Of a DNA stretch of 43,099 nucleotides, positions 1,487 through 39,058 are shown in pieces. The notes under the pieces are model-generated. The model had not been told where the DNA came from and searched no databases. It saw only the letters and a list, made by a program, of their open reading frames with translations. The stretch comes from a virus: IMG/VR virus record IMGVR_UViG_3300020193_000042, positions 1-43,099 of that record; one strand, given 5' to 3'. The number at the start of each line of letters is the position of its first letter. The first letter of the stretch is position 1. The position numbers were made by a program, and so were the translations under genes.

Positions 1487-4400
1487 ATGCCGGATCGGGC
1501 CACCCGCGTTCGCGAGCTGCTAGGCCAAGGACTCGGAGTCGACGAGGTCGTTCGTCGGGTCCGCCAGGAGGAGTGGGAAACCTCCATTGCGGGTATGCCC
1601 GACGACGAGATGCGCGCGGCGTACGAGTCGTTAGCTGGGTTCAAGCAGTTGGGGAGAATGATCAAGGGCGTCCCCCGCTGGTTTCTCCAGGGCGCGCACG
1701 GCATCCACGAGACCGTCTACGGGGCACTGGAGGGACTCAGCCGCTTCGGGCAGGAGGTTCGCCCACCACACGGCATGGGCACGCCCGCGCAGGAGGAGGA
1801 GATGCGCGCGGCGTATGAGTCCGCAAAAGGACTCGGCGGTCTGGCTGGCTCCGACCCAGAACGGTGGGAGCGGAAGCGCCAGGAGTCTGCGGAGAAGGTC
1901 GGCCTCCCACGGAACGCTGCGGAACTCGGCTTTCGCATCGGCGGGATGCTGGTCCCCTACTTCGCACTCGGCCGCTTTGCTTCGGCCCGGTTGGGCCCTC
2001 AGATCGCGGCCGGCATGGCGCTCGATATCCCAGTTGCGATGGGCAAGCGCGAGTACTCGCTCGCCGGCATCGCGGCAGACATGAGCGACCCGCTTCGTGA
2101 CGTGCCGACCGAACGCATCGCGCCCTTCGAGGACCAGCGCGAGGAGGAGTTCCAGGGCTGGTACGCTGACCGCGCTCGCACGCTGGACCTGGACCCCGAC
2201 CCCGACTCGCAGTCCTACGACTACCGGCGTGCGTGGGAGGCGGGCGCGGAGCCCGACGAGGACGGCCACTGGCCGAGCGACTTCAAGCTCCGCTACCACC
2301 CCAACCTGATCGTGGACGGGCAGGTGACGGCAACCGGGGAGGACGCACGCGGTAGCCGCTTCCATCGTGCAGCCGAGTACGTCGCCGATGACTTTCTGCT
2401 CCGTGGGCTCGCGGAAGGTGTCGCTGGCGGGACCATCACTGCCGCCCTTTTGAAGGGCATACCCGCACTGCGCTCACTGCGCTCCCCTGCGGTACGCGCG
2501 TTCGGCGGCGCAGCGGCCGGCGGCGTGATCGGCGGCATGGTCAACGAGGACAACCGCATGGCTGGCATCACGGGCGGCGCGCTCCTCGGCATGGGCGCTG
2601 CGATGACGCCGGAGCTGGTGCGCGCTGCCGGTGGTCAGTACGCGACCCCGCTACCTGAGGGAGCCCGCGCGACACGCGGCGCGGTCGTCAACCCGGTGGC
2701 TCCGCGTGTGGCGGGAGAGACGGATACCGGGATGCGTGGTCGCTGGTACTCGCGGCTGAACCGCGCGATCGAGCAGGCCCCGCAGGATCAGATGCCGGCC
2801 TCTCAATGGATGGGCTCGCTCAGGAACACGAAGGAGGGCCTGTCGGGCACGGAGGTCGAGTGGACCAAGATCGAGGAACTGCTCGCGGAGAGGGGCGACG
2901 AGATGCTCACGCGGGGTCAGGTGATGGAACTAGCGCAGCGGAACCCGATCCGGTTGACGGAGACGGTACGGGGGCGGGCGGCCGTATCAGAGGGACTGAA
3001 CATGAACAGCCCGTACATGACGCCACGGGTCCGTGAGATTCTCATGGAGAACCAGGGCGAGGCTGATGACGCACTCCGGATGACGTTGGAGAACGACGGC
3101 GCCGCATACCGGGAACTGACCGCGAAGTTTCCGGAACTGGCGGAGAACGAGGACTGGGCCGATGTCGTTCTTAGGGACGTGGTCGGTACAGCAGAAGACC
3201 CCCAACTTGTCGCTCCCAAATACCCTGGCATCACGCTCGGGGCGCGCGGCAAGGAGCCGGACGCGAACTATCGCGAGATCCTGATCCGGCTGGACGACCA
3301 GAGAGGTCCGAGCGCCAAGTTGGCGAAGGACGGCGATCTGTGGGGCGTCAAGGACCAGAACACGGGCGAGTGGCTCATGCGCGCAGAGTCGTATCCCGTG
3401 GCGAGCATGTACGTGGATCGCCTAGACCAGGAGGCCGGGCGTAGGGCTGGACGGTTTACGGGCGGCCACTGGTCCGAGCCGAACGTGCTTAGCTCCCTCC
3501 GCGTAACCGATGAGGTCGGTGAAGGTAGCGAGAAGATACTGCGCGTGCGCGAGATGCAGGACGACTGGGCGCAGCAACTGCGCGCAGGGAGGGATGTGCC
3601 CGATCGTCCATTCAAGAAGTCGTCCGAGTGGACCGCACTCCAGATTCGGCGCGCGCTCCAAGAGGCGGCTGATGGCGATTACGACCGCATCATGTTCCCG
3701 AGCGGCGACGAGCAAGTGTACCAGTACGGAACGCAGCGTGTGAGGTGGAGCACGCGCACAGATGGTGCCTTTGATGTCGAGATCGAACCGCAAGTGGGCG
3801 GTGACACGATGGGTCACGACCTAGGAGCGTTTGCCGACGAGCAAGGCATCAAACGGAGGGCGGCGATTGTGCGCAGCCCTGATGAGTTACAGCGGGCGCT
3901 AGACGCGAGCGACGCCGAGGGCGTTGATGGACTGGGCGAAAAAATCTGGCGGCGGATGCAAGTCGAACCCGAAGGCGTGAGCACTCCGCGCGCGGAGGGC
4001 ATGCGCAAGTTCTACGACGAAGACATCGTGCCGAACGAAATCGCGCGTGAGGCACGCCGTGTCGGCGCCGTAGCTGAGCGCATCCCTTCGCCGGATGCAC
4101 AATTGATTCCCACGGAAGACTGGGGTGTCTTCGGTACGCGGACGAATGAGCCGTACTACGCCAGGTTCGCGACGCGCGCCGAGGCAGCGTTGTATACATA
4201 CGGACACGCGCTGCCGCCGGGGTTCGTGTTCAAACAAGTGCGTCATGGCGTGAACCGCCCGATAACGTTCGACATTGTGGACGAGGTCGGCGAGGTCGTC
4301 GGCAGCGGTAAGAACAAGTCCTACGCTGTCCGCGACGCAGCGAACGTAGACAGTGAGTTCCGCGAGGCATATAGGGAGGTGTACCGCCCGCTCATAGAAC

Positions 4401-7400
4401 GCGGCCGCGACCCGCTCGGCGACAGTTACGACGCTTTCGGGAGCCTCGACTTTGGGCAATCTAGGCCGATGAGCGAACACTGGTCCATCCGCATCACGCC
4501 GCAGGCTCGTGACCGCATCCTGAACCAGGGCCAGCGCATCGGCGGGGCTCCCCCCGCGATGGTGCGCGGGATCACAGGCATGGCAGCTGGTGGCGCGACG
4601 GGGGCTGCGGTCGACGACGAGAACCCGGCGCGTGGCGCAGCGTTCGGCGCGCTCGCGGGCATGGGCGCGGGGCTTGCGCCGGAGCTGCTCCGGGCGGCTG
4701 GTGGTCAGTACGCGGACGAGATCGCGCGTCAAGGCGAGGCCGGCCGCCTCGTCGCCGCCGTTCGCAACCCGAAGACTGGGCTCACCGCACTCGGCGCGAC
4801 GCACCCGACGATCCTGAACGAGGCGTTCAAGCGTGGGGTCGACCTCGGTGAGGACGCCTACGCGCTGCGCGGGTTCCACGAGACGACAGAGCCAGGGAGC
4901 TTCCTCGATCGCTCGCAGGCTGCGGGCAGACTAGGAAGTGGCGGCCAACTTCGTGCCGAGCATCTCGAAGGGTTCGAGGCCGAGCCGTTCCGCGTGATCG
5001 AGACCTCGCGTCCTGACCGCCCGTTCAAGATCGCCCAGGAGTTCGTCTCCCGTGGCAGGCATGGCGTATTCCGGGCGGTGCCGCCGGAGATGGATCTCGA
5101 GTTCGGTCGCCACATGGTGCGCGCGCTCGGCAGCGACATCACGAACCTGGTCAACCCGAAGATCGCCATGGTCGCGGAGGAGGGTCGGGGTGTGTGGGCC
5201 CAGACCGTCAGCCCGAACACGCTTCTGGCGCTCGAAGGAGCGAGTAGGGACGAGGCCCTGCGCGTGGCCGCCCTTTACGGGATCGCCACCGGCCAGGACG
5301 TCGAGGCTGGGTACCGGATTCTGGACGACGCCATCAACACGATCGACGACGCTGGCCGGGTGCTGGAGGACCCCACCAAACGGCTCGCAGTGGTGCTGAC
5401 GGGCGACGTAGACGATATTATACGGCGTCTCGCGGCTGCCAACATAGGGGCCACCGCGGAGCGCGGCCGGGTCGTCGTGGGCGACTTCGGCGGGATTGGT
5501 ATCGAGGCACTGGACGCACGTCTCAACAGGGCTTTGGAGGGTGCTGATGTCGGAGAACCAGAGGTCGCCGCTCTCGACGCGCTTGAAGTTTCTCGCGCGG
5601 GCTACGGGCCTCTCGCCAGAGACGCGAGAACTCTTGAAGGGCTGGCGGATGTCGTTGAGGCCAAGATCGGCCCAGCCTACCGAGAGTTCGCCGCCCAGCG
5701 CGGGCTCGACATCTCGGCCGACCTCTCCTCGCTCGGAGAAATCTCCAGAGCACTGAGGGCCGCGCCCGGCGAGCAGCGCTGGTGGCTCGAGGCGGGCGCT
5801 GCGCGGGTGAAGAGCGGCGCGGCGACCGCACGGGCGGTCGATCTCGTGCCACGCCTGCCGGTCGACGACACGGTCGGCGAGCTGGCTTCCAAGCTGCGCG
5901 TGAAGCGCGGGCGCGTCAGCCAGCGCGAGGTCCTTCAGCTCGCTGGCGGTGACGAGAAGCTCGCCAAGCAGGTGACGCGGTTCTTCCAGGCCCGCATGAG
6001 CGAGACGCTCAAGGACCTGCCGCTGCCGACCGCAGATCGTATGCGCGAGATGGTGGCCGGCGGACGCGGTGGGGCATCCTTCTTCGAGGTCCGCCCGATG
6101 GTCGAGGAAGTGCTCGGCAACGATGATGCGGACATGTTCCTCCGCTTCTACGCGATTACCTCCTCCGGGACCGACGCGGCGGAGGCGAACATCACGCTCG
6201 CGGCGAAGGCGTATGCCCAGTGGAAGCTCGGCCTGCCATTCACCGGATACCGGCGTGCGACGATCGGGCCGATGCTGCAGCAGGCTACCACGGGTGCGGT
6301 CTTCGGGGAGCGCAAGATCCAGCAGATGTACCGCGCTCTGATGGGCGACACCAACGCATACGTCCATGACATGTGGATGTCGCGCCTGTTCGGATTCCCG
6401 GAGGGCGTCACCGCAGGCCAGTACCGCTACGCGGAGCAGACGGTGCGCTCGCTCGCGAAGGAACTTGACCTGTCGATTCGCGATACGCAGGCGATCCTCT
6501 GGAGTGGGATCAAGAGGTGGTGGGGCGATGTGGGGCTCGGGCGCGTGACAGACGCGGACGACTTCCCTGCCCTGCTGCGCTCTGCGCTCACCGAGCAGCA
6601 GCCGCTGAGGCCGGGCCAGAAGCCGTGGGCCGACCGGAGCATCGTCGGGCGCTGGGGCTCGCTCGACGACGCCACGAAGGAGAACATCCGCCGGGTGATC
6701 GCGGAGGACGAGGCGGTCTACACGGCCACCTACGGACCACGCGCCGGGAACGTCGACCTGATGATGCTCAGGATGCTCGCCATCGCTGGCGGCGGGATCA
6801 CGGGCGCGGTCGCAGACGAGGAGAACCGGCTGCGCGGGTTCGGGCTCGGGCTCGCTGCAGGGGCCGGCGTAGCGCTCATCGATGTCGGTCGGGTTCGCGC
6901 AGTCGGACCAGATGCGCGTCTCATCCCCGAGGCCGTGCGTGGGCTGGTCAAGATGGACGACGCTGGCCATCTCGTGACGCCCGCGAAGGGCTCGAGGCAG
7001 GGGCTCGAGCTGGGATCGTGGTGGTCCGACACGACCGGCCGGCCGCTCGCTGACTGGAACGCTTTCACGAAGGCCGAGCAGGACCAGCAGATCGTGCAGC
7101 TCGCGCGTGCGGAGCGCGACCTGAAGCTCGGCGGGCCCGGCACGGTGATCGGCGACCGGGGCGGGTACGCGCTGCCTGGGTTCGTGGGAGCGGTAGCGCG
7201 GACAGGCGTGGGCGCGGCGGTTGGCGCAGCGGTAGCGCCGGAGGACCAGGAGCTGCTCGGCGCGACGGCGGGCGGCCTGCTGTTCCTGCTCGGCGGCGAG
7301 GTGATGGCCGGAGAGGGCAGCCCGCTCCTGCGGGCCCTGTCGCTCAGGAAGGCGGGTCTGCTCTCCGCGTTTTCGACGACCGGCCTGAACGTTGCCTCGA

Positions 7401-9142
7401 CCGCGACGATGGTCGGTGCCGAGGCGCTCAAGGACGCGCCCGCGGCGGCGTGGGACTGGCTGATCTCTGGCGTGACTGGCGTGCGCTCGAAGGACGGTCT
7501 CTCGCTGTCCACCCTGCGTGCTTCATACGACGCGGCCGGCGAGGGGTGGGAGGCTGCCAAGAAGATTTGGCGCGAGGGCGAGTCTGTCGCCGACCTGGCG
7601 AAGTGGGATCAGGTGCGCGTGACGTTCAAACACGAGCTCGTCCAGAGACTGCACGACGCTGTGTTTAGGTCGCTCGGCGCGCAGGACAGGTTCTTCCACA
7701 CGGTGGCCGCAGCGCGCTCGCTTCAGGAGCAGGCGAACGTGATTGCGCGGGAGGCGTTCAGGGGTCGCGGCATGAAGGAGTTCTCCGAGTTCGCGCCCGC
7801 ATTCTCGGACTGGCGCGAGATGTCTTCCTGGCTGCAGGCGAACCCGACCGCCGACATGGCGCTCCGCTCGCAGGTCGACGCATCGCTCGCGGTGTTCAGG
7901 AACCAGGACGGGCTGCTGGCTAACGCCGCCAAGAATCTCAGGCAGGCATTCTCGGACCACAGCCCCGAGGCCGAGGCCGTGTTCGATCTGTTCCTGCCGT
8001 TCACGACCACGCCGGCCAACGTCGTGTCGCGAGTGGCTGAGTACTCGCCGCTCGGGTTCCTCGGCGTGAGCCGCGACCTGATCGAGCTGCGGAAGATCGT
8101 GCAGGAGGGCTCCGACGATCTCGCTCCACTGTTCGCGAAGCAGCGGCGGGTCTCCGACCGGCTCGGGCGCGCGACCCTGGGCACGGGCGCTGTCATGCTC
8201 GGCATGTGGCTCGCGCACAAGAAGCTGCTCTCGCCCGGCTACCCACAAACCGCCCGCGAGCGCAACGTCCAGCGCATCACCGACCGCCCGGCCGGCTCGA
8301 TCAGGATCGGCTCCAAGGACTACCCGATCGAGCGGATGGCGCCGTTCGGGCCGCTGCTCGTCATGGGTGCGGAGCTGTACGAGGGCGCGAAGAGCGGTGG
8401 CCGGCTGGCTGGCATCCTGCAGGGTACCAACTACCTGGCTCGCAACGTGACGAACGAGAGCTTCCTCGGCGACGTCGATGTGGCGCTCAACATGCTGTCG
8501 GGCCCGGGCGAGCTGAGTGAGCGCGCGGACGACTTCACGTCCGACGTCGCGTCCTCGTTCGTGCCGAACATCCTGCGCCGGGGGCTGGCCGGCTGGGACC
8601 CGACGATCAGGGAGCCGCGTAGGCCGTCGTTCACGGAGCCCGCCACCCTGGTCGACCGGGCCGCGACCGCGATTCCGGGGCTCAGGCAGGAGATGCCGGC
8701 CCGTGTCGACCCGCTCGGCGAGTATGTCTCCAGGGGGCGCGGTGGCGTGCTCGGTGCGGTCGAGCGCATCTTCAACCCGTTCACGGGCCAGGTCGACCTG
8801 TCGGACACGGACCCGCTCCGCGAGACGATCGAGCAGTACGGCGCCTCGATCCCCTCGGTTGACGAGCGGCTCAGCAAAGCGGGGATCGAGCGCGGCACCC
8901 GCGAGTACGAGATGCGCTCGCGGATGTACGGTCTGCGCGTGCGTGCCAAGCTCGAGCAGGCCCAGCAGGGCGCAGAGTTCGAGTTCACGATCGCAGGCAA
9001 GCGCGTGAAGATCACGTGGGACGAGGCGACGCCTGAGCAGCGCCGCGCCATCCTCGAGCGCGCGGCCGAATCCGCCAAAGACTGGGTGACCGACAAGTTC
9101 AAGTACCTCGAGGATCGGGGCCTCTACCAGAGCCTGCCGTGA
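1487..9142 (+). CDS. giant multidomain (polyvalent) virion-associated protein, putative DNA-ejection protein
   Basis: 2551 aa, 18% of the window. It begins one base after the preceding stop. Residues about 145-200 are hydrophobic. Residues about 590-745 match the widespread phage domain whose hallmark is EIQSDWHQ...VPDAPFK...GYDRI; here the key parts are REMQDDW, VPDRPFKKSSEW and YDRIMFPSG. Around 1560-1670 is a helical phage domain with KIQQMYRALMGDTNAYVHDMWM, perhaps DUF7178-like. Residues about 2165-2310 (FTTTPANVV...YSPLGFL, later APFGPLLVMGAELY) resemble the LPD38 domain of large polyvalent phage proteins. Four Gly/Ala-rich segments, each beginning with an acidic motif such as NEDN, DDEN or DEEN, occur near residues 345-385, 1033-1075, 1766-1800 and 1900-1945. 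Such giants are typically packaged and ejected with the DNA; the exact role is inference. Confidence 0.75.
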   Translation: MPDRATRVRELLGQGLGVDEVVRRVRQEEWETSIAGMPDDEMRAAYESLAGFKQLGRMIKGVPRWFLQGAHGIHETVYGALEGLSRFGQEVRPPHGMGTPAQEEEMRAAYESAKGLGGLAGSDPERWERKRQESAEKVGLPRNAAELGFRIGGMLVPYFALGRFASARLGPQIAAGMALDIPVAMGKREYSLAGIAADMSDPLRDVPTERIAPFEDQREEEFQGWYADRARTLDLDPDPDSQSYDYRRAWEAGAEPDEDGHWPSDFKLRYHPNLIVDGQVTATGEDARGSRFHRAAEYVADDFLLRGLAEGVAGGTITAALLKGIPALRSLRSPAVRAFGGAAAGGVIGGMVNEDNRMAGITGGALLGMGAAMTPELVRAAGGQYATPLPEGARATRGAVVNPVAPRVAGETDTGMRGRWYSRLNRAIEQAPQDQMPASQWMGSLRNTKEGLSGTEVEWTKIEELLAERGDEMLTRGQVMELAQRNPIRLTETVRGRAAVSEGLNMNSPYMTPRVREILMENQGEADDALRMTLENDGAAYRELTAKFPELAENEDWADVVLRDVVGTAEDPQLVAPKYPGITLGARGKEPDANYREILIRLDDQRGPSAKLAKDGDLWGVKDQNTGEWLMRAESYPVASMYVDRLDQEAGRRAGRFTGGHWSEPNVLSSLRVTDEVGEGSEKILRVREMQDDWAQQLRAGRDVPDRPFKKSSEWTALQIRRALQEAADGDYDRIMFPSGDEQVYQYGTQRVRWSTRTDGAFDVEIEPQVGGDTMGHDLGAFADEQGIKRRAAIVRSPDELQRALDASDAEGVDGLGEKIWRRMQVEPEGVSTPRAEGMRKFYDEDIVPNEIAREARRVGAVAERIPSPDAQLIPTEDWGVFGTRTNEPYYARFATRAEAALYTYGHALPPGFVFKQVRHGVNRPITFDIVDEVGEVVGSGKNKSYAVRDAANVDSEFREAYREVYRPLIERGRDPLGDSYDAFGSLDFGQSRPMSEHWSIRITPQARDRILNQGQRIGGAPPAMVRGITGMAAGGATGAAVDDENPARGAAFGALAGMGAGLAPELLRAAGGQYADEIARQGEAGRLVAAVRNPKTGLTALGATHPTILNEAFKRGVDLGEDAYALRGFHETTEPGSFLDRSQAAGRLGSGGQLRAEHLEGFEAEPFRVIETSRPDRPFKIAQEFVSRGRHGVFRAVPPEMDLEFGRHMVRALGSDITNLVNPKIAMVAEEGRGVWAQTVSPNTLLALEGASRDEALRVAALYGIATGQDVEAGYRILDDAINTIDDAGRVLEDPTKRLAVVLTGDVDDIIRRLAAANIGATAERGRVVVGDFGGIGIEALDARLNRALEGADVGEPEVAALDALEVSRAGYGPLARDARTLEGLADVVEAKIGPAYREFAAQRGLDISADLSSLGEISRALRAAPGEQRWWLEAGAARVKSGAATARAVDLVPRLPVDDTVGELASKLRVKRGRVSQREVLQLAGGDEKLAKQVTRFFQARMSETLKDLPLPTADRMREMVAGGRGGASFFEVRPMVEEVLGNDDADMFLRFYAITSSGTDAAEANITLAAKAYAQWKLGLPFTGYRRATIGPMLQQATTGAVFGERKIQQMYRALMGDTNAYVHDMWMSRLFGFPEGVTAGQYRYAEQTVRSLAKELDLSIRDTQAILWSGIKRWWGDVGLGRVTDADDFPALLRSALTEQQPLRPGQKPWADRSIVGRWGSLDDATKENIRRVIAEDEAVYTATYGPRAGNVDLMMLRMLAIAGGGITGAVADEENRLRGFGLGLAAGAGVALIDVGRVRAVGPDARLIPEAVRGLVKMDDAGHLVTPAKGSRQGLELGSWWSDTTGRPLADWNAFTKAEQDQQIVQLARAERDLKLGGPGTVIGDRGGYALPGFVGAVARTGVGAAVGAAVAPEDQELLGATAGGLLFLLGGEVMAGEGSPLLRALSLRKAGLLSAFSTTGLNVASTATMVGAEALKDAPAAAWDWLISGVTGVRSKDGLSLSTLRASYDAAGEGWEAAKKIWREGESVADLAKWDQVRVTFKHELVQRLHDAVFRSLGAQDRFFHTVAAARSLQEQANVIAREAFRGRGMKEFSEFAPAFSDWREMSSWLQANPTADMALRSQVDASLAVFRNQDGLLANAAKNLRQAFSDHSPEAEAVFDLFLPFTTTPANVVSRVAEYSPLGFLGVSRDLIELRKIVQEGSDDLAPLFAKQRRVSDRLGRATLGTGAVMLGMWLAHKKLLSPGYPQTARERNVQRITDRPAGSIRIGSKDYPIERMAPFGPLLVMGAELYEGAKSGGRLAGILQGTNYLARNVTNESFLGDVDVALNMLSGPGELSERADDFTSDVASSFVPNILRRGLAGWDPTIREPRRPSFTEPATLVDRAATAIPGLRQEMPARVDPLGEYVSRGRGGVLGAVERIFNPFTGQVDLSDTDPLRETIEQYGASIPSVDERLSKAGIERGTREYEMRSRMYGLRVRAKLEQAQQGAEFEFTIAGKRVKITWDEATPEQRRAILERAAESAKDWVTDKFKYLEDRGLYQSLP
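6881..6922. repeat. 42-bp perfect inverted copy of a terminase-gene segment
   Basis: The reverse complement of this stretch is identical over 42 nt to positions 25929-25970 in the terminase large-subunit gene. The match extends a few bases either way with mismatches. It sits just after the third Gly/Ala-rich segment of the giant gene and is translated here as IDVGRVRAVGPDAR, while in the terminase it encodes ETRIWSDCANPTDI. See findings. Confidence 0.95.
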
Positions 9143-17023: not shown

Positions 17024-17791
17024 ATGGGCGCCAAGGGCCAGATCGTGCCCGTCGTCGAGGCGGAGGTTGTGCAGCACGCAGGACCGGATGTGGGGCGTCT
17101 GATGGAGATGGCGCTCGGGCAGGGTGAGGGTGGGGTGGCCGCTCTGGAGCGGTTGGTCTCGCTGCAGGAGCGGATGCTGGTGGTGCAGGCGGAGCAGGCG
17201 ATGGACCGGGCGCTCGCGAAGTTCCACGCCGAGTGCCCGCCGATCCCGAAGGACGCCGAGATCGGGCACCTGCAGGTGACCAGGAACGGGCGGAAGGTCG
17301 CGGTGCGCTACACGCGGCTCGAGACGCTCGTGCCGATCATCAGGCCGACGCTCCAGTCGTGCGGCCTGTCGTTCGGCTGGACGCAGCAGGACCGCGAGGG
17401 CGAGGTCGAGATCACGTGCTCGCTCTACCACGTGCTGGGCGCGAAGCGGCATTCCTCGGTGGTCATGCCGGTGCCCGAGAAGGCGGCCGGCCAGTCGCCG
17501 ATGCAGACGAAGAACTCCTCAGTGAGCTACGGGCGGCGCGTGACGCTCACGGGGGTGCTGGGGCTCGTCTCGACCGACGAGGACGTTGACGGGCAGGCTG
17601 GGACGGCCAGCGAGAAGCTGACCGGGGAGGAGGCGGGCCACCTCGCGGTGCTCGCCGACGAGGTGAACCTGTCCGAGGCGGCGCTCACGAAGCTGCTCGC
17701 GCTGCTCGGGGTGTCCGCGTTCGCGGAGCTGGACCGCTCGCTCTACCCGACCGCGCTCCGCATGATCGAAGCGAAGAGGGCCGCCAGATGA
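17024..17791 (+). CDS. erf: ERF family single-strand annealing protein
   Basis: 255 aa, ATG after GGAGGAGG. The ERF core lies near residues 50-185: ALAKFHAECPPIPKDAEIG, RYTRLETLVPIIRPTLQSCGLSFGW and the diagnostic end SPMQTKNSSVSYGRRVTLTGVLGL. ERF proteins bind ssDNA and anneal complementary strands in phage recombination, genome circularisation and repair. The C-terminal region (about 200-255) is helical and may mediate partner binding. The gene overlaps by 4 nt the YqaJ-type exonuclease gene, which would supply the ssDNA: a two-component Red-like system. Confidence 0.9.
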   Translation: MGAKGQIVPVVEAEVVQHAGPDVGRLMEMALGQGEGGVAALERLVSLQERMLVVQAEQAMDRALAKFHAECPPIPKDAEIGHLQVTRNGRKVAVRYTRLETLVPIIRPTLQSCGLSFGWTQQDREGEVEITCSLYHVLGAKRHSSVVMPVPEKAAGQSPMQTKNSSVSYGRRVTLTGVLGLVSTDEDVDGQAGTASEKLTGEEAGHLAVLADEVNLSEAALTKLLALLGVSAFAELDRSLYPTALRMIEAKRAAR

Positions 17792-18720
17792 TCGTCCACA
17801 AGCTGAACGACCTAGGCAACGAGATCAAACAGGGGACCGCAGACTGGTTCCAGCTGCGGCTCGGGAAACCGACAGCGTCCGAGTTCCACCGGGTCATGAC
17901 CAACGAGACGCTCCAGTACTCGAAGGCAGCCTACGAGTACATCGCCGAGCTGTTGGCGGAGAAGCTGCTGGATGCGCCGCTCAAGCCGTTCGATCCCTCC
18001 TCGCGGTGGGATGTCGATGTGCCTGGCCGTGCGTTCACCGACTACACGCAGCGCGGCCAGATCCTCGAGCGCGAGGCGTACTCGTTCTACGAGTTCTTCC
18101 GCGAGGTCGAGCTGGAGCGGGTCGCGTTCGTGGAGCTGGACGACCACTCAGCGGGCGGCAGCCCTGACGCGCTCGTGGGGAAGGATGGGATCGTGGAGAT
18201 CAAGTGCCTCGCCCCGAAGGGTCAGGTCGGCCGTGCGCTCAAGCTGGACCCGATCGCCAAGAAGACGCAGGTGCAGGGCCTGCTCTACATCTGCGAGCGC
18301 GACTGGTGCGACGTGGTCTCCTACAGCGTCCACCCGAAGATCCCGACGCTCGTCGAGCGGCAGTACAGGAACGACCTCTTCATCAAGGCGCTCAGGGACT
18401 GCCTGGAGCAGTTCGGTAGGGACTTCGCGAAGGCCGAGAAGCACCTCGAGATGATCTCCGAGAACGGGGTCTGGGTCGAGGACGGCGGGCTCAGGGCGCA
18501 GCTGCTCGCGTCGCTCGCGCTCGGCTCGAAGCTGCCCAAGGACGCGCTCACGTTCGACGAGGTCGAGGCGCTCGACGCCGACCTGAAGCTGGCGCGTCTG
18601 AACGGCTGCATCGATGAGGCCGACGAACAGCGTATCCGCCAGGATGTGCTGGCCGGCAAGTGGGGCGAGGTTCGCGCGATGTGGGACTGGATGCGAAAGG
18701 TTACGAGGAGGGCAGAGTAA
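17788..18720 (+). CDS. YqaJ-like (lambda exonuclease fold) viral recombinase
   Basis: 310 aa, ATG overlapping the ERF stop. The N-terminal signature GTADWFQLRLGKPTASEFHRVMT (residues 16-38) is typical of YqaJ-like alkaline exonucleases. The PD-(D/E)XK core is visible as GSPD127ALVG...GIVE137IK139C, followed by a helix with a Gln (KKTQVQGLLYICERDW). It would resect dsDNA 5'-3' and hand ssDNA to the ERF annealing protein. The C-terminal 90 residues are an added helical region, longer than in minimal family members. Confidence 0.88.
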   Translation: MIVHKLNDLGNEIKQGTADWFQLRLGKPTASEFHRVMTNETLQYSKAAYEYIAELLAEKLLDAPLKPFDPSSRWDVDVPGRAFTDYTQRGQILEREAYSFYEFFREVELERVAFVELDDHSAGGSPDALVGKDGIVEIKCLAPKGQVGRALKLDPIAKKTQVQGLLYICERDWCDVVSYSVHPKIPTLVERQYRNDLFIKALRDCLEQFGRDFAKAEKHLEMISENGVWVEDGGLRAQLLASLALGSKLPKDALTFDEVEALDADLKLARLNGCIDEADEQRIRQDVLAGKWGEVRAMWDWMRKVTRRAE

Positions 18721-24353: not shown

Positions 24354-24562
24354 GCCGCCCCCTCTTCGACGGGTACGACAGCGACTACGCCAACGGCATC
24401 AGGTACATTCGCCGCATCAGCTCCAACCGTGCGCCGCTCAGGTTGCCGGCACCTGACTGTGGCTGTCGGCGGGAGCACAACAGCGGCGTGTGGACGCTGC
24501 ACCTCTGCGCTCGCCACCAGGTGGAGCAGGGCATCGTGCAGTACTGCCTGGAACACGCATGA
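24350..24562 (+). CDS. small Cys/His-rich protein, 70 aa
   Basis: GTG start overlapping the previous stop (GTGA). C37-G-C39...H43 and H51-L-C53-ARH56 could bind one zinc. Located between terminase genes. Not recognised. Confidence 0.6.
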   Translation: MSRPLFDGYDSDYANGIRYIRRISSNRAPLRLPAPDCGCRREHNSGVWTLHLCARHQVEQGIVQYCLEHA

Positions 24563-24786
24563 GCGAACTCGTGATGCAGCTGATCTACCATGCCGAGTAC
24601 GGGCTCTCGCCAAGGCCGAACGTGTCGCTCGAGCGCACGTTCTCCGGTCGGTTCGTGGTTCGCAGCGGCAGTCTCGCCCCGCTCACGCTGCCGCAGCATC
24701 CCGAGGTAGACGAGGCGGCCAAGCTCGAGGACTGGGCCAAGGATGCCTTCGACCAGATATACGGCTGGCTGCGCGGGTGGCGGTGA
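24559..24786 (+). CDS. small hypothetical protein, 75 aa
   Basis: Start MSELVMQLIYHAEYGLSPRPN at an ATG overlapping the previous stop; the longer reading is shadow. The stop overlaps the GTG of the terminase gene. A beta-rich N-terminal half is followed by an acidic helix (DEAAKLEDWAKDAFDQIYGWL). Unknown; tightly coupled to packaging genes. Confidence 0.6.
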   Translation: MSELVMQLIYHAEYGLSPRPNVSLERTFSGRFVVRSGSLAPLTLPQHPEVDEAAKLEDWAKDAFDQIYGWLRGWR

Positions 24787-26438
24787 TCTCGCTGATCGAC
24801 GAGTACCTCTCGCCTGAGCGGCTGCAGGAGCACATCATCCGCGCCGAACTCGAGCCCGCGCTCATGCTCAGGAACGAGACCGACATCGACCCGATCGCGC
24901 GCCTACTCGACGAGAAGTTCACCGAACGATTCTGGGAGTACGAGCACTCGCAGATCGGCGACGTGATACCGGGCGAGTTGCACGTGAAACAGCTCGAGGC
25001 GCTGCACGAGGACGTCAGGCATCGCTTCCTGTTCTGGGGCAACCAGGTCGGCAAGACCACGCTCGGTGCGGTCGAGTGCGACCTCGTCGCGCTCAAGAGG
25101 CATCCGACGATCAAGCCGCAGGGCCCGGCTGTGGTGTGGGCGTCGGCGCTGACCTGGGAGCTGTGGGAGCAGATCCTGCTGCCTGAGCTGCTCACCTGGC
25201 TGCCGCAGGACCGCATCATCAGCGCGCCCGAGCCGTTCCGCTCGACGCCCGGCCGGCGCACGATCCTGGTTCGCGCGGACGATGGATCGGTCGCGCGCAT
25301 CGTCGGAAAGAGCGTGCAGCAGGGGCGGCGGTCCTACCAATCCGCGAAGGTCCACTTCGTCTGGCTCGACGAGGAGCATCCCGAGCAGGTGTGGGACGAG
25401 ATCCAGCCGCGCCTGCTCCGGTTCGGTGGGCGCACGCTCACGACCGCGACTCCGCTGCTGGGCCTGACCTGGCTCTTCCACCGCGTCTACGAGAGCTGGC
25501 GCCGAGGGACCGAGCCCGAGTTCTGGTGCTCGCACGCCGGGCTGATGGACAACCCCGCGATCGACGCCGAGATGGTCGCCGCGACCCGCCGCCAGTTCGC
25601 GCACGACCCGTCCCAGCTCGCTGCACGGCTCGATGGCAAGTTCGCGCGGCCGACTGGGCTCGCGCTCTCCGCCTACGACCCGAAGAAGAACCTTGAGTCC
25701 TTCGGGCTCGCGGACGCGGAGGAGGCGAACAGGGCAGGGCGCACGGGCAGGGGCTGGACGCACGTCTGCGGGCTCGATTTCAGCTACTGGCGATTCGCGT
25801 TCCTGCACGGGATGGTCGACCACGCGGGCCGGCTGCACATCGTGAAGGAGTATTTCAGCCAGAAGCAGACGCTCGAAGTCAGGGCCCGGCATGTGCATGA
25901 GCACCTCGCCGCGTGGGGCGCGCCCGAGGAGACGCGCATCTGGTCCGACTGCGCGAACCCGACCGACATCAACGAGCTGAACGCAGCGCTCAAGCGCATC
26001 GGCTCGCCCTACCGCTGCCGTGCGGTCAAGGCTGAATCGAAAGCGCGCAGGACCGGCGTCACGCTGCTCAACGACCTCTTCGCACGCGGCGCACTGCTCA
26101 TCTCGCGCACGGTCGACGACGAGAGCGTCTGGTACCGCGGGCAGGACGCATCGTCCGACGGCCAGCCCGCTGCAGGCTCGAGACTGCTCTACGAGATCGG
26201 GCAGTGGCGCTACGAGAAGCCGACCCAGGACGGCAAGGTGCAGAGCGACGACCCGGTCGACGACACGGCGGATGGCGCGGACTGCTGCGCGGCACTACGC
26301 TACCTGGCGATGAGCCACTTCCGGCCAGCGAAGAAGGCTCCTGTGCCACCGAAGCGGAAGAACCCCAACCTCGACGACGGATACGCGAAAATGCAGAAGG
26401 CGATGCGCGAGCGGATGAAGCGGGAGCAGGTCGCATGA
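24783..26438 (+). CDS. terL: terminase large subunit
   Basis: 551 aa, GTG start overlapping the previous stop (GTGA). The ATPase domain shows Walker A at FWG86NQVGK91T and Walker B at HFVWLD196E197. The RNase H-like nuclease domain begins near residue 328 with GLD332FSYWR, includes WSD389CANPTDI, and ends with an acidic motif near residue 490 (DDPVDDTADGADCC). It drives DNA packaging through the portal encoded downstream. The segment 25929-25970, encoding ETRIWSDCANPTDI, recurs inverted in the giant gene. Confidence 0.93.
   Translation: MISLIDEYLSPERLQEHIIRAELEPALMLRNETDIDPIARLLDEKFTERFWEYEHSQIGDVIPGELHVKQLEALHEDVRHRFLFWGNQVGKTTLGAVECDLVALKRHPTIKPQGPAVVWASALTWELWEQILLPELLTWLPQDRIISAPEPFRSTPGRRTILVRADDGSVARIVGKSVQQGRRSYQSAKVHFVWLDEEHPEQVWDEIQPRLLRFGGRTLTTATPLLGLTWLFHRVYESWRRGTEPEFWCSHAGLMDNPAIDAEMVAATRRQFAHDPSQLAARLDGKFARPTGLALSAYDPKKNLESFGLADAEEANRAGRTGRGWTHVCGLDFSYWRFAFLHGMVDHAGRLHIVKEYFSQKQTLEVRARHVHEHLAAWGAPEETRIWSDCANPTDINELNAALKRIGSPYRCRAVKAESKARRTGVTLLNDLFARGALLISRTVDDESVWYRGQDASSDGQPAAGSRLLYEIGQWRYEKPTQDGKVQSDDPVDDTADGADCCAALRYLAMSHFRPAKKAPVPPKRKNPNLDDGYAKMQKAMRERMKREQVA
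25929..25970. repeat. 42-bp segment shared in inverted form with the giant gene
   Basis: Identical over 42 nt to the reverse complement of 6881-6922. Here it encodes part of the conserved nuclease-domain motif, so this copy is the likely source. Confidence 0.95.
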
Positions 26439-27521: not shown

Positions 27522-27873
27522 CCACGGGCCGCCGCCGCTTCCTGCAGGCGATGTTCGGGGCTGCGTGTGGGGTCGCGCTCGGCGACGAGATCCTCGAGAC
27601 GCTCGACCGGCTGGCGCCGCGGCCGGTGGTCGTGCCGGGCGCGGATCTCTCGGGGTACACCCCAGTAGTGATGACGTCGGAGTTGAGTGGGCTACTCCTC
27701 TTGGCGTCCGGTGGCGTCATCAACTTCAATAGCGGCGACGTGACGATCACGCACGCGGCGAATATGTCGGCCAGATCGTGCCGACGGTGAGATGGGACTC
27801 CATCACGGCGCAGATGTTCACGACCCACGTCTACGACGGCGCGCGGGTGTTCACGTTCTCAGTGACCCCATGA
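27518..27873 (+). pseudogene. Tat-signal-like small protein gene, interrupted by a tail-fibre-like segment and frameshift
   Basis: The first frame (27518-27790) starts MTTGRRRFLQAMFGAACGVALG, with a twin-Arg motif (RRRFLQ) and hydrophobic stretch like a Tat signal. It continues to MTSEL and then a segment (LLASGGVINFNSGDVTITHA) that resembles the tail-fibre protein at 38249, and stops at 27790. In the -1 frame, from about 27763, a well-formed end follows (YVGQIVPTVRWDSITAQMF, THVYDGARVFTFSVTP). Its stop overlaps the next ATG by 4 nt, matching local gene spacing. So the original gene probably ended in that frame and was disrupted. No function recognised for the intact form. Confidence 0.6.
27700..27760 (+). 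repeat. diverged copy of a tail-fibre gene segment
   Basis: 61 nt matching 38830-38890 at 53 positions (about 87%) with no gaps. The translated peptide LASGGVINFN(S/N)G(D/N)(V/A)TITH is shared. It ends right where the frameshift of the host gene occurs. Confidence 0.85.
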
Positions 27874-28167: not shown

Positions 28168-28887
28168 GTGGGACGAGTCCAGAAACGTGAGAGCCCATGG
28201 CTCTTTCAGTGGCGGAAGGTGCTGCTCTCAGAAGCGGGCCCGACGTTCGCACGACGGCACGTGCTCAACGTGCTCGCCGGATACGGCGATGAGCACGGCA
28301 ACGAGATCTTCCCGTCGACTGACACGCTGGCCCGCGCCACGGGCATGTCACGACGCCGCGTGGAGGAGCATCTGCGCAAGGCCGAGGCCGACGGCTGGAT
28401 CGAGCGTACTGTGGCCGGCTCGGGGCGGGGGTGGCGACGCATGACCTACACGCTGCACGTCCCGAAAGGTGCGGACGGAGCGTCCGGACCAAGACTCGCT
28501 GAGGTGCGGACGGAGCGTCCCGACCTCAATTGTCGGCGTGCGGACGATGGAGGTACTGAGGTGCGGACGGAGCGTCCCATTACCTCTTTAGAGACCTCTC
28601 CAAGTATTGCTCGCAATCGCGCAGCGACCGAGACGAGACTTCCTCGAAAGCAGTGCAAGCAAGAGCAGCCGGGCTGGACCACCCGCGCTGGCGATCGGTG
28701 GAGAGCTGCGTTCGGGGGCGTCCCCAACTACGGCAAGATCGGCCGTCACCTGAAGCCGCTTGTCGACGAGCACCGCAGCGTAGTCGATCTCACTCATGGT
28801 CGTTGCTCCCAACGGCTTAGGCCGTTAACTTTGGATGCAGAACGGGGCCATCGGGGGGCGGTTTCCCGCCCCCCTCGCCCCTTCTAA
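28168..28887 (+). CDS. helix-turn-helix protein with internal iteron-like repeats, putative replication-type protein
   Basis: 239 aa, GTG start after GGGGGGAA. Residues about 20-95 (FARRHVLNVLAGYGDEHGNEIFPSTDTLARATGMSRRRVEEHLRKAEADGWIERT) form an HTH_36-type winged helix, often the N-terminus of phage replication initiators. The middle encodes three 19-bp DNA repeats. The segment WRAAFGGVPNYGKIGRHLKPLVDEH looks like the usual conserved C-terminal domain, but after it the sequence becomes Arg/Pro-rich and the DNA holds two hairpins, so the 3' end may be frameshifted or fused. Second initiator-like gene in the window besides 19282. Confidence 0.65.
   Translation: MGRVQKRESPWLFQWRKVLLSEAGPTFARRHVLNVLAGYGDEHGNEIFPSTDTLARATGMSRRRVEEHLRKAEADGWIERTVAGSGRGWRRMTYTLHVPKGADGASGPRLAEVRTERPDLNCRRADDGGTEVRTERPITSLETSPSIARNRAATETRLPRKQCKQEQPGWTTRAGDRWRAAFGGVPNYGKIGRHLKPLVDEHRSVVDLTHGRCSQRLRPLTLDAERGHRGAVSRPPRPF
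28467..28577 (+). repeat. three 19-bp iteron-like direct repeats; candidate origin
   Basis: AGGTGCGGACGGAGCGTCC occurs exactly at 28467-28485, 28502-28520 and 28559-28577, with a partial copy (GTGCGGACG) near 28538. Copy 1 lies in a different reading frame from copies 2 and 3, so the DNA rather than the peptide is conserved. A comparatively AT-rich stretch (about 28577-28620) follows, as in iteron origins placed inside initiator genes such as lambda O. Confidence 0.7.
28853..28874 (+). other. hairpin at the 3' end of the helix-turn-helix gene
   Basis: GGGGGGCGG and CCGCCCCCC pair perfectly around TTTC. Another short hairpin (AACGGC/GCCGTT) lies at 28811-28826. Both are within the annotated reading frame, which suggests that the last 25 or so codons are not the gene's original end. 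No T-run follows directly. Confidence 0.55.
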
Positions 28888-38252: not shown

Positions 38253-39058
38253 GTTTCGCGTTCGGCGTCAAGGCGCTCCAGCCGATCGCCGGCCAGCCGC
38301 ACATCCTTGGGTTCGCTGCTGCCGAGACGACCTCGGACCAGACGATCGTCGAGGTCTGGAACGGCCCGTCGTCTGCCGCTCGCGTGCTGCGGATCAACAA
38401 GGACGGGCAGATCCAGGCGGCGAACGGCGCGGTAGGCACGCCGGCCTACTCATTCGAGTCGGACAAAGACTCGGGGATGTACCGGATCGGCGCGAACGAG
38501 ATCGGGCTCGCGGTGGGTGGGGCTGCGCGAGTGACGGTCAGTGCGTCGCTCGTGAGCATCGTTGGCTCGTCCGCCGACGAGCAGCTCCGCATCAACCACG
38601 CCTCGGCCACAGGCAATCCGTTCATCGGGTTCTACCAGAACGGGACGCGGCGTGCGTACATCCAGTCTGGTGATTCAGGTGACTACCTCGGCCTCCTCGC
38701 TGAGTACGGTCCCGTGTACCTGGGGTCGGGTAATGATTGGCGCGTGGCCGTCAGCACTACAGCATTTTACCCCTTCGCCGACGACGGCATCACCCTTGGC
38801 ACAGGCACGTACAAGTTCTCCGATCTGTTCTTGGCGTCCGGCGGCGTCATCAACTTCAACAACGGCAATGCTACGATCACGCACTCGGCGGGCAACTTGA
38901 AGTTTAGCAGCGACGTTGAATTAGATGGCGCGCTCAATCACGACGGGACAACCGTAGGCTTCTATGGTACGGCACCCATCGCGCAACAGGCTGGCGTACC
39001 CGTAACTGCCGCCGGCGTCCACGCGGCGTGTGTCGCCCTCGGGCTGTTTACAGCATGA
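38249..39058 (+). CDS. tail fibre / receptor-binding protein
   Basis: 269 aa, GTG overlapping the previous stop. Typical tail-fibre repeats are visible: VGTPAYSFESDKDSGMYRIGANEIGLAVGG, FIGFYQNGTRRAYIQSG, DDGITLGTGTYKFSDLFLASGGVINFN, and the end HDGTTVGFYGTAPIAQQAGVP with a short helical cap (AAGVHAACVALGLF), as in many podovirus fibre proteins. A short segment (38830-38890) recurs diverged in the 27518 gene. Receptor specificity cannot be predicted. Confidence 0.75.
   Translation: MSFAFGVKALQPIAGQPHILGFAAAETTSDQTIVEVWNGPSSAARVLRINKDGQIQAANGAVGTPAYSFESDKDSGMYRIGANEIGLAVGGAARVTVSASLVSIVGSSADEQLRINHASATGNPFIGFYQNGTRRAYIQSGDSGDYLGLLAEYGPVYLGSGNDWRVAVSTTAFYPFADDGITLGTGTYKFSDLFLASGGVINFNNGNATITHSAGNLKFSSDVELDGALNHDGTTVGFYGTAPIAQQAGVPVTAAGVHAACVALGLFTA
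38830..38890 (+). repeat. tail-fibre segment shared with 27700-27760
   Basis: 61 nt matching the copy in the small Tat-like gene at about 87%. This copy sits in frame in the fibre repeat region and is the likely original. Confidence 0.85.

Follow-up and report, generated by a model that had tools for sequence, protein, structure and literature searches.

A 42-nt inverted copy of terminase DNA in the giant protein gene of an uncultured phage: a probable recent templated insertion

A 42-nt segment in the giant protein gene of an uncultured phage is probably a recent templated insertion, in which terminase DNA was copied in inverted orientation into the gene (probability of about 0.62). The phage is represented by one metagenome contig, and the window analyzed here is IMG/VR record IMGVR_UViG_3300020193_000042 from position 1 to 43,099, at its full length of 43,099 nt. 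The insert most likely arose as a one-off copying accident rather than being a working element.

Inverted match between two phage genes

Positions 6881-6922 of the plus strand and positions 25929-25970 read on the minus strand are identical at 42 of 42 nucleotides, making the two sites, separated by about 19 kb, perfect reverse complements of each other, with exact identity ending at 42 nt on both sides. Considering the length and composition of the window, 2.5e-15 exact inverted matches of at least 42 nt are expected by chance. The runner-up exact inverted match in the window measures 16 nt, the same length as the longest match expected by chance, and in six contigs of other phages to which these genes had led (G001-G006, 278 kb in total) the maximum for exact inverted matches whose two sites lie more than 1 kb apart was 18 nt. 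With only about 2e-15 such matches expected by chance, the match is therefore real in the sequence, and the initial annotation was right both on the perfect 42-nt inverted identity and on the statement that a chance match is not credible.

The 42-mer has no further copies within the record beyond this pair, and no exact copy was found in other IMG/VR contigs by a search that possibly omitted very near records. Both the giant gene and the terminase gene are colinear with their relatives; since they run straight through there, the contig is not flipped at the repeat, and an assembler mis-traversal or contig flip at the inverted repeat was rejected.

The terminase gene as the source

The terminase large subunit gene (24777..26438, plus strand) forms the conserved part of the ORF at 24429-26438, matches PHROG 2 with an E value of 4e-20, and is 67% identical in the related contig G001 (IMGVR_UViG_3300022562_000826). 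Its segment at 25929..25970 on the plus strand encodes ETRIWSDCANPTDI, as the initial annotation had correctly read, and aligns without a gap to the G001 terminase, which displays DTRLWGDCANPTDI at this position with 25 of the 42 nt consecutively identical. The stretch DCANPTDINELN is wholly common to the two terminases. A second relative, G006 (IMGVR_UViG_3300005336_000010), reads ANPTD at the donor position, and more distant terminases differ at the segment. The conservation of the donor codons is unexceptional, with a longest run of 12 identical codons (shuffle P of 0.15).

The check proposed in the initial annotation, an alignment of related giant genes and terminases, showed that the donor motif is in place in the terminases of G001 and G006 and that the giant-gene copy is missing from both. 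Judged from these alignments, the terminase is therefore the source and the giant gene the recipient. The terminase original is intact and colinear with that of G001, which identifies the event as a copy and not a move.

Insertion site in the giant protein gene

The recipient, a giant protein gene (1487..9142, plus strand), encodes 2551 amino acids. The protein is probably virion-associated, and its C-terminal part bears a distant likeness to an internal virion protein of Synechococcus phage P60. Two relatives with the giant gene, G001 and G006, were available for comparison, with amino-acid identities of 53-65%; no recognizable giant-gene homologue was present in G002-G005, the more distant terminase relatives, and none was found in bacterial genomes.

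The inverted copy (6881..6922, plus strand) is read in the giant frame as DVGRVRAVGPDARL; the peptide IDVGRVRAVGPDAR given in the initial annotation was one codon off. In its C-terminal part, the giant protein is 58% identical to G001, which lacks exactly 15 residues at the insert site, and G006, with 53% identity over the aligned region, lacks 14. Because both relatives align through the site without the segment, with conserved flanks (NRLRG before and GHLVTPAKG after), the segment is, by comparison with these two proteins, an in-frame insertion of 42-45 nt (14 or 15 residues) and not a replacement. The earlier description, in which it took the place of a PEL(V/L)RAAGGQYA-like stretch, was thus mistaken, as PEAVRGLV, the counterpart of PEL(V/L)RAAGG in the sister repeats, is still present just downstream, and the segment was inserted before it, between a glycine-rich segment and PEAVRGLV. 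Replacement of a repeat segment was accordingly rejected.

The two possible lengths of the insertion depend on the empty site. A 6-nt direct repeat, CTCATC, surrounds the insert on the plus strand at 6875..6880 and 6920..6925, and the 42-nt match terminates in the CTC of the right member. With an empty site of the form ...GCGCTCATCATCCCC..., which fits G006, the gene would have gained 42 nt net, and with ...GCGCTCATCCCC..., which fits G001 and puts CTCATC on both sides, 45 nt; the empty sites of the two relatives differ in length by one codon.

Several further features were observed around the insert. The giant protein contains three diverged glycine-rich repeats (2491-2644, 4561-4714, and 6760-6837), the third of which lies just before the insert. 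On the strand opposite the giant gene, an open frame of 679 aa (4931-6970, minus strand) traverses the insert; it is probably a by-product of high G+C content. AlphaFold2 modeled the insert as a low-confidence coil after a helix, and with a mean pLDDT of 48 the prediction of this region is too weak for use.

Proposed route of insertion

In the proposed route, a strand end from the giant gene, around 6880/6925, would pair with the terminase gene through a very short match during replication or recombination, with the terminase template in inverted orientation, located either on that molecule or on a second phage DNA molecule. The end would be extended by about 42 nt on the terminase DNA and would then rejoin the giant gene, adding 14 residues if the empty site read CTCATCATC, or 15 residues with 3-6 nt duplicated if it read CTCATC. 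The giant frame stays open through the 42-nt insert, as the initial annotation had noted, and since no stop codon was introduced, the insert is probably tolerated and near-neutral. An inverted template switch, already suggested in that annotation together with the erroneous replacement, is still the best reading considering the intact, conserved donor and the two relatives without the copy at a colinear site.

The exact microhomology at the junctions amounts to only 2-3 nt (CTC at one junction). Comparison of the outer flank of the donor with the recipient beyond the junction gave 9 of 15 matching positions on one side (P of 0.01) and 5 of 15 on the other (P of 0.40), with a joint P of 0.02; because the junctions were compared post hoc, this similarity is weak evidence. 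The phage encodes an Erf-type single-strand annealing protein (17024..17791, plus strand; Pfam PF04404 above cut-off, PHROG 155) and a YqaJ-type exonuclease, by its inferred role the partner of the annealing protein (17788..18720, plus strand; Pfam PF09588 above cut-off, PHROG 149). It is plausible that this pair assisted the templated insertion, and given the 2-3 nt of exact junction microhomology we infer its involvement only at that strength. Poorly matched DNA is recombined by Rad52-like proteins, among them the Erf of phage D3, and D3 Erf/Exo equalled lambda Red in one assay (PMC3945230). Lambda joints have been described at identities down to 2 bp, and RecET was reported to join matches of 5-13 bp (PMC2327257).

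So short a microhomology fits the capture of a DNA end as well as template switching. In this alternative, which departs from the preferred explanation in the joining step only, the giant gene would undergo a staggered break that takes up a short loose fragment of terminase DNA, and end joining with fill-in would duplicate CTCATC. Insertions from distant loci at yeast breaks carry 0-4 bp of end microhomology (PMC11724301), so that a model in which a break captures a displaced strand is a close rival. The CTCATC repeat on both sides of the insert and the 45-nt net gain relative to G001 agree with the 3-6 nt duplication expected from it, whereas G006 fits a plain 42-nt gain with no duplication. 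A profile scan of the main ORFs, which was non-exhaustive, recognized no Ku or ligase, though the host could provide them. On balance, fragment capture is considered unlikely as the source of the insert.

An origin in the library is another improbable account, in which an amplification chimera or a polymerase jump in the tube was assembled and the natural phage has no insert. It would agree with a window known as one metagenome contig whose second copy was not found, with the lack of the insert in both relatives, and with the description of inverted chimeras as those that phi29 amplification forms more easily (PMC4595205). Phi29 chimeras, however, mostly join sites less than 5 kb apart (peak at 250-300 nt) through overlaps mostly of 5-8 nt (PMC4595205), whereas the partners here lie 19 kb apart with an exact overlap of at most 3 nt. 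An artefact also needs two junctions 42 nt apart that return to the same place, and the segment could not be invented by an assembler, nor was the repeat mis-traversed, given the colinear genes. The frame that stays open counts against it as well, although a random event leaves the frame open with a chance of about 1/4 (1/3 in frame multiplied by 0.78 stop-free). On the preferred explanation, the insert would be carried by the living phage.

The templated insertion resembles the templated insertions and microhomology-mediated template switching described in yeast and cancer (PMC11724301, PMC8421209), in which a short, exact copy of a distant sequence is made, the donor remains unchanged, and inverted orientation is possible. 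The ends in those cases share 0-4 nt of microhomology, beside 2-3 exact nt here. Unlike those cases, it lies in a phage genome, in frame inside an open gene, and is known from sequence alone. In the quasipalindrome template-switch mutations of E. coli, a strand likewise copies an inverted template and then returns, but the template is a nearby imperfect inverted repeat (PMC7202029), while the donor here is 19 kb off and the two sites were previously dissimilar. With Rad52-like phage recombination (Redbeta, RecT, and Erf; PMC3945230, PMC2327257), the phage shares an encoded Erf and exonuclease, and short, poorly matched joints are allowed in that system; the known role of these proteins is the exchange of modules at related sequences, in contrast to a short inverted insert between unrelated genes. 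Phi29 chimeras also join two sites of one genome in inverted orientation, yet the present case differs by its larger distance, shorter overlap, and two junctions leading back to the same gene (PMC4595205). A limited literature search found no papers on such an event in phage.

Possible functions of the insert

A functional role of the insert is possible but unsupported. Both genes lie on the plus strand, so that their messages are complementary over 42 nt with a duplex energy of about -95 kcal/mol; the giant-gene mRNA might thus act as antisense to the terminase mRNA, which would be cut or blocked with an effect on terminase timing, or the pair might be a DNA site. This reading is regarded as very improbable, since the copy is absent from G001 and G006, identical pairing would follow from any exact inverted copy, the donor shows no excess codon conservation (P of 0.15), and neither other copies nor a conserved site were found. 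Its specific version, in which the insert would be kept because the pairing of the two messages times terminase production, so that a coding insertion would also serve as an antisense acting in trans inside a single phage, is slightly more doubtful still.

The packaging or recombination site put forward in the initial annotation found no support, as neither relative with the giant gene carries the copy, the longest identical-codon run in the donor is not unusual, and distant terminases differ at the segment; a conserved DNA site of this kind is likewise unsupported by that absence and by the codon statistics. No evidence was obtained for the further idea that both strands carry a function; an open frame alone arises in about a quarter of random events. 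A mobile element or transposon was also rejected: such elements have terminal inverted repeats or a transposase of their own and occur in several copies, whereas the insert consists of 42 nt taken from the terminase coding sequence and has the donor as its sole other copy. No feature matched a diversity-generating retroelement.

Other repeats in the window

A second pair of similar segments, 27699-27760 and 38829-38890, extends over 62 nt with 87% identity, in direct orientation and the same frame, with unrelated flanks. The former is the end of a small ORF adjoining the terminase and the latter belongs to a tail-fibre-like gene. The mismatches are not restricted to A, and the pair is therefore not attributed to retroelement-type diversification; it may be an older event comparable to the present one, or else a fibre motif that both segments contain. 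The pair hints at recurrent short ectopic copying in the lineage, though one case proves little.

Two sets of direct repeats were also observed. A perfect 32-nt repeat (514-545 and 568-599) with a period of 54 nt lies in the first ORF, and short repeats of 19-23 nt with the unit AGGTGCGGACGGAGCGTCC occupy 28467-28578.

Significance

If the segment were an artefact, it would serve as a warning that short inverted inserts can hide in viral contigs with their frames unbroken. If real, it would be a clean example of a phage that gained an inverted templated insertion from a distant site while the frame of a probable virion gene was preserved, and its exact product would be usable for testing against Erf-type recombinases. 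It would also mean that phages, as they replicate or recombine, can have short peptides from another context spliced into their proteins.
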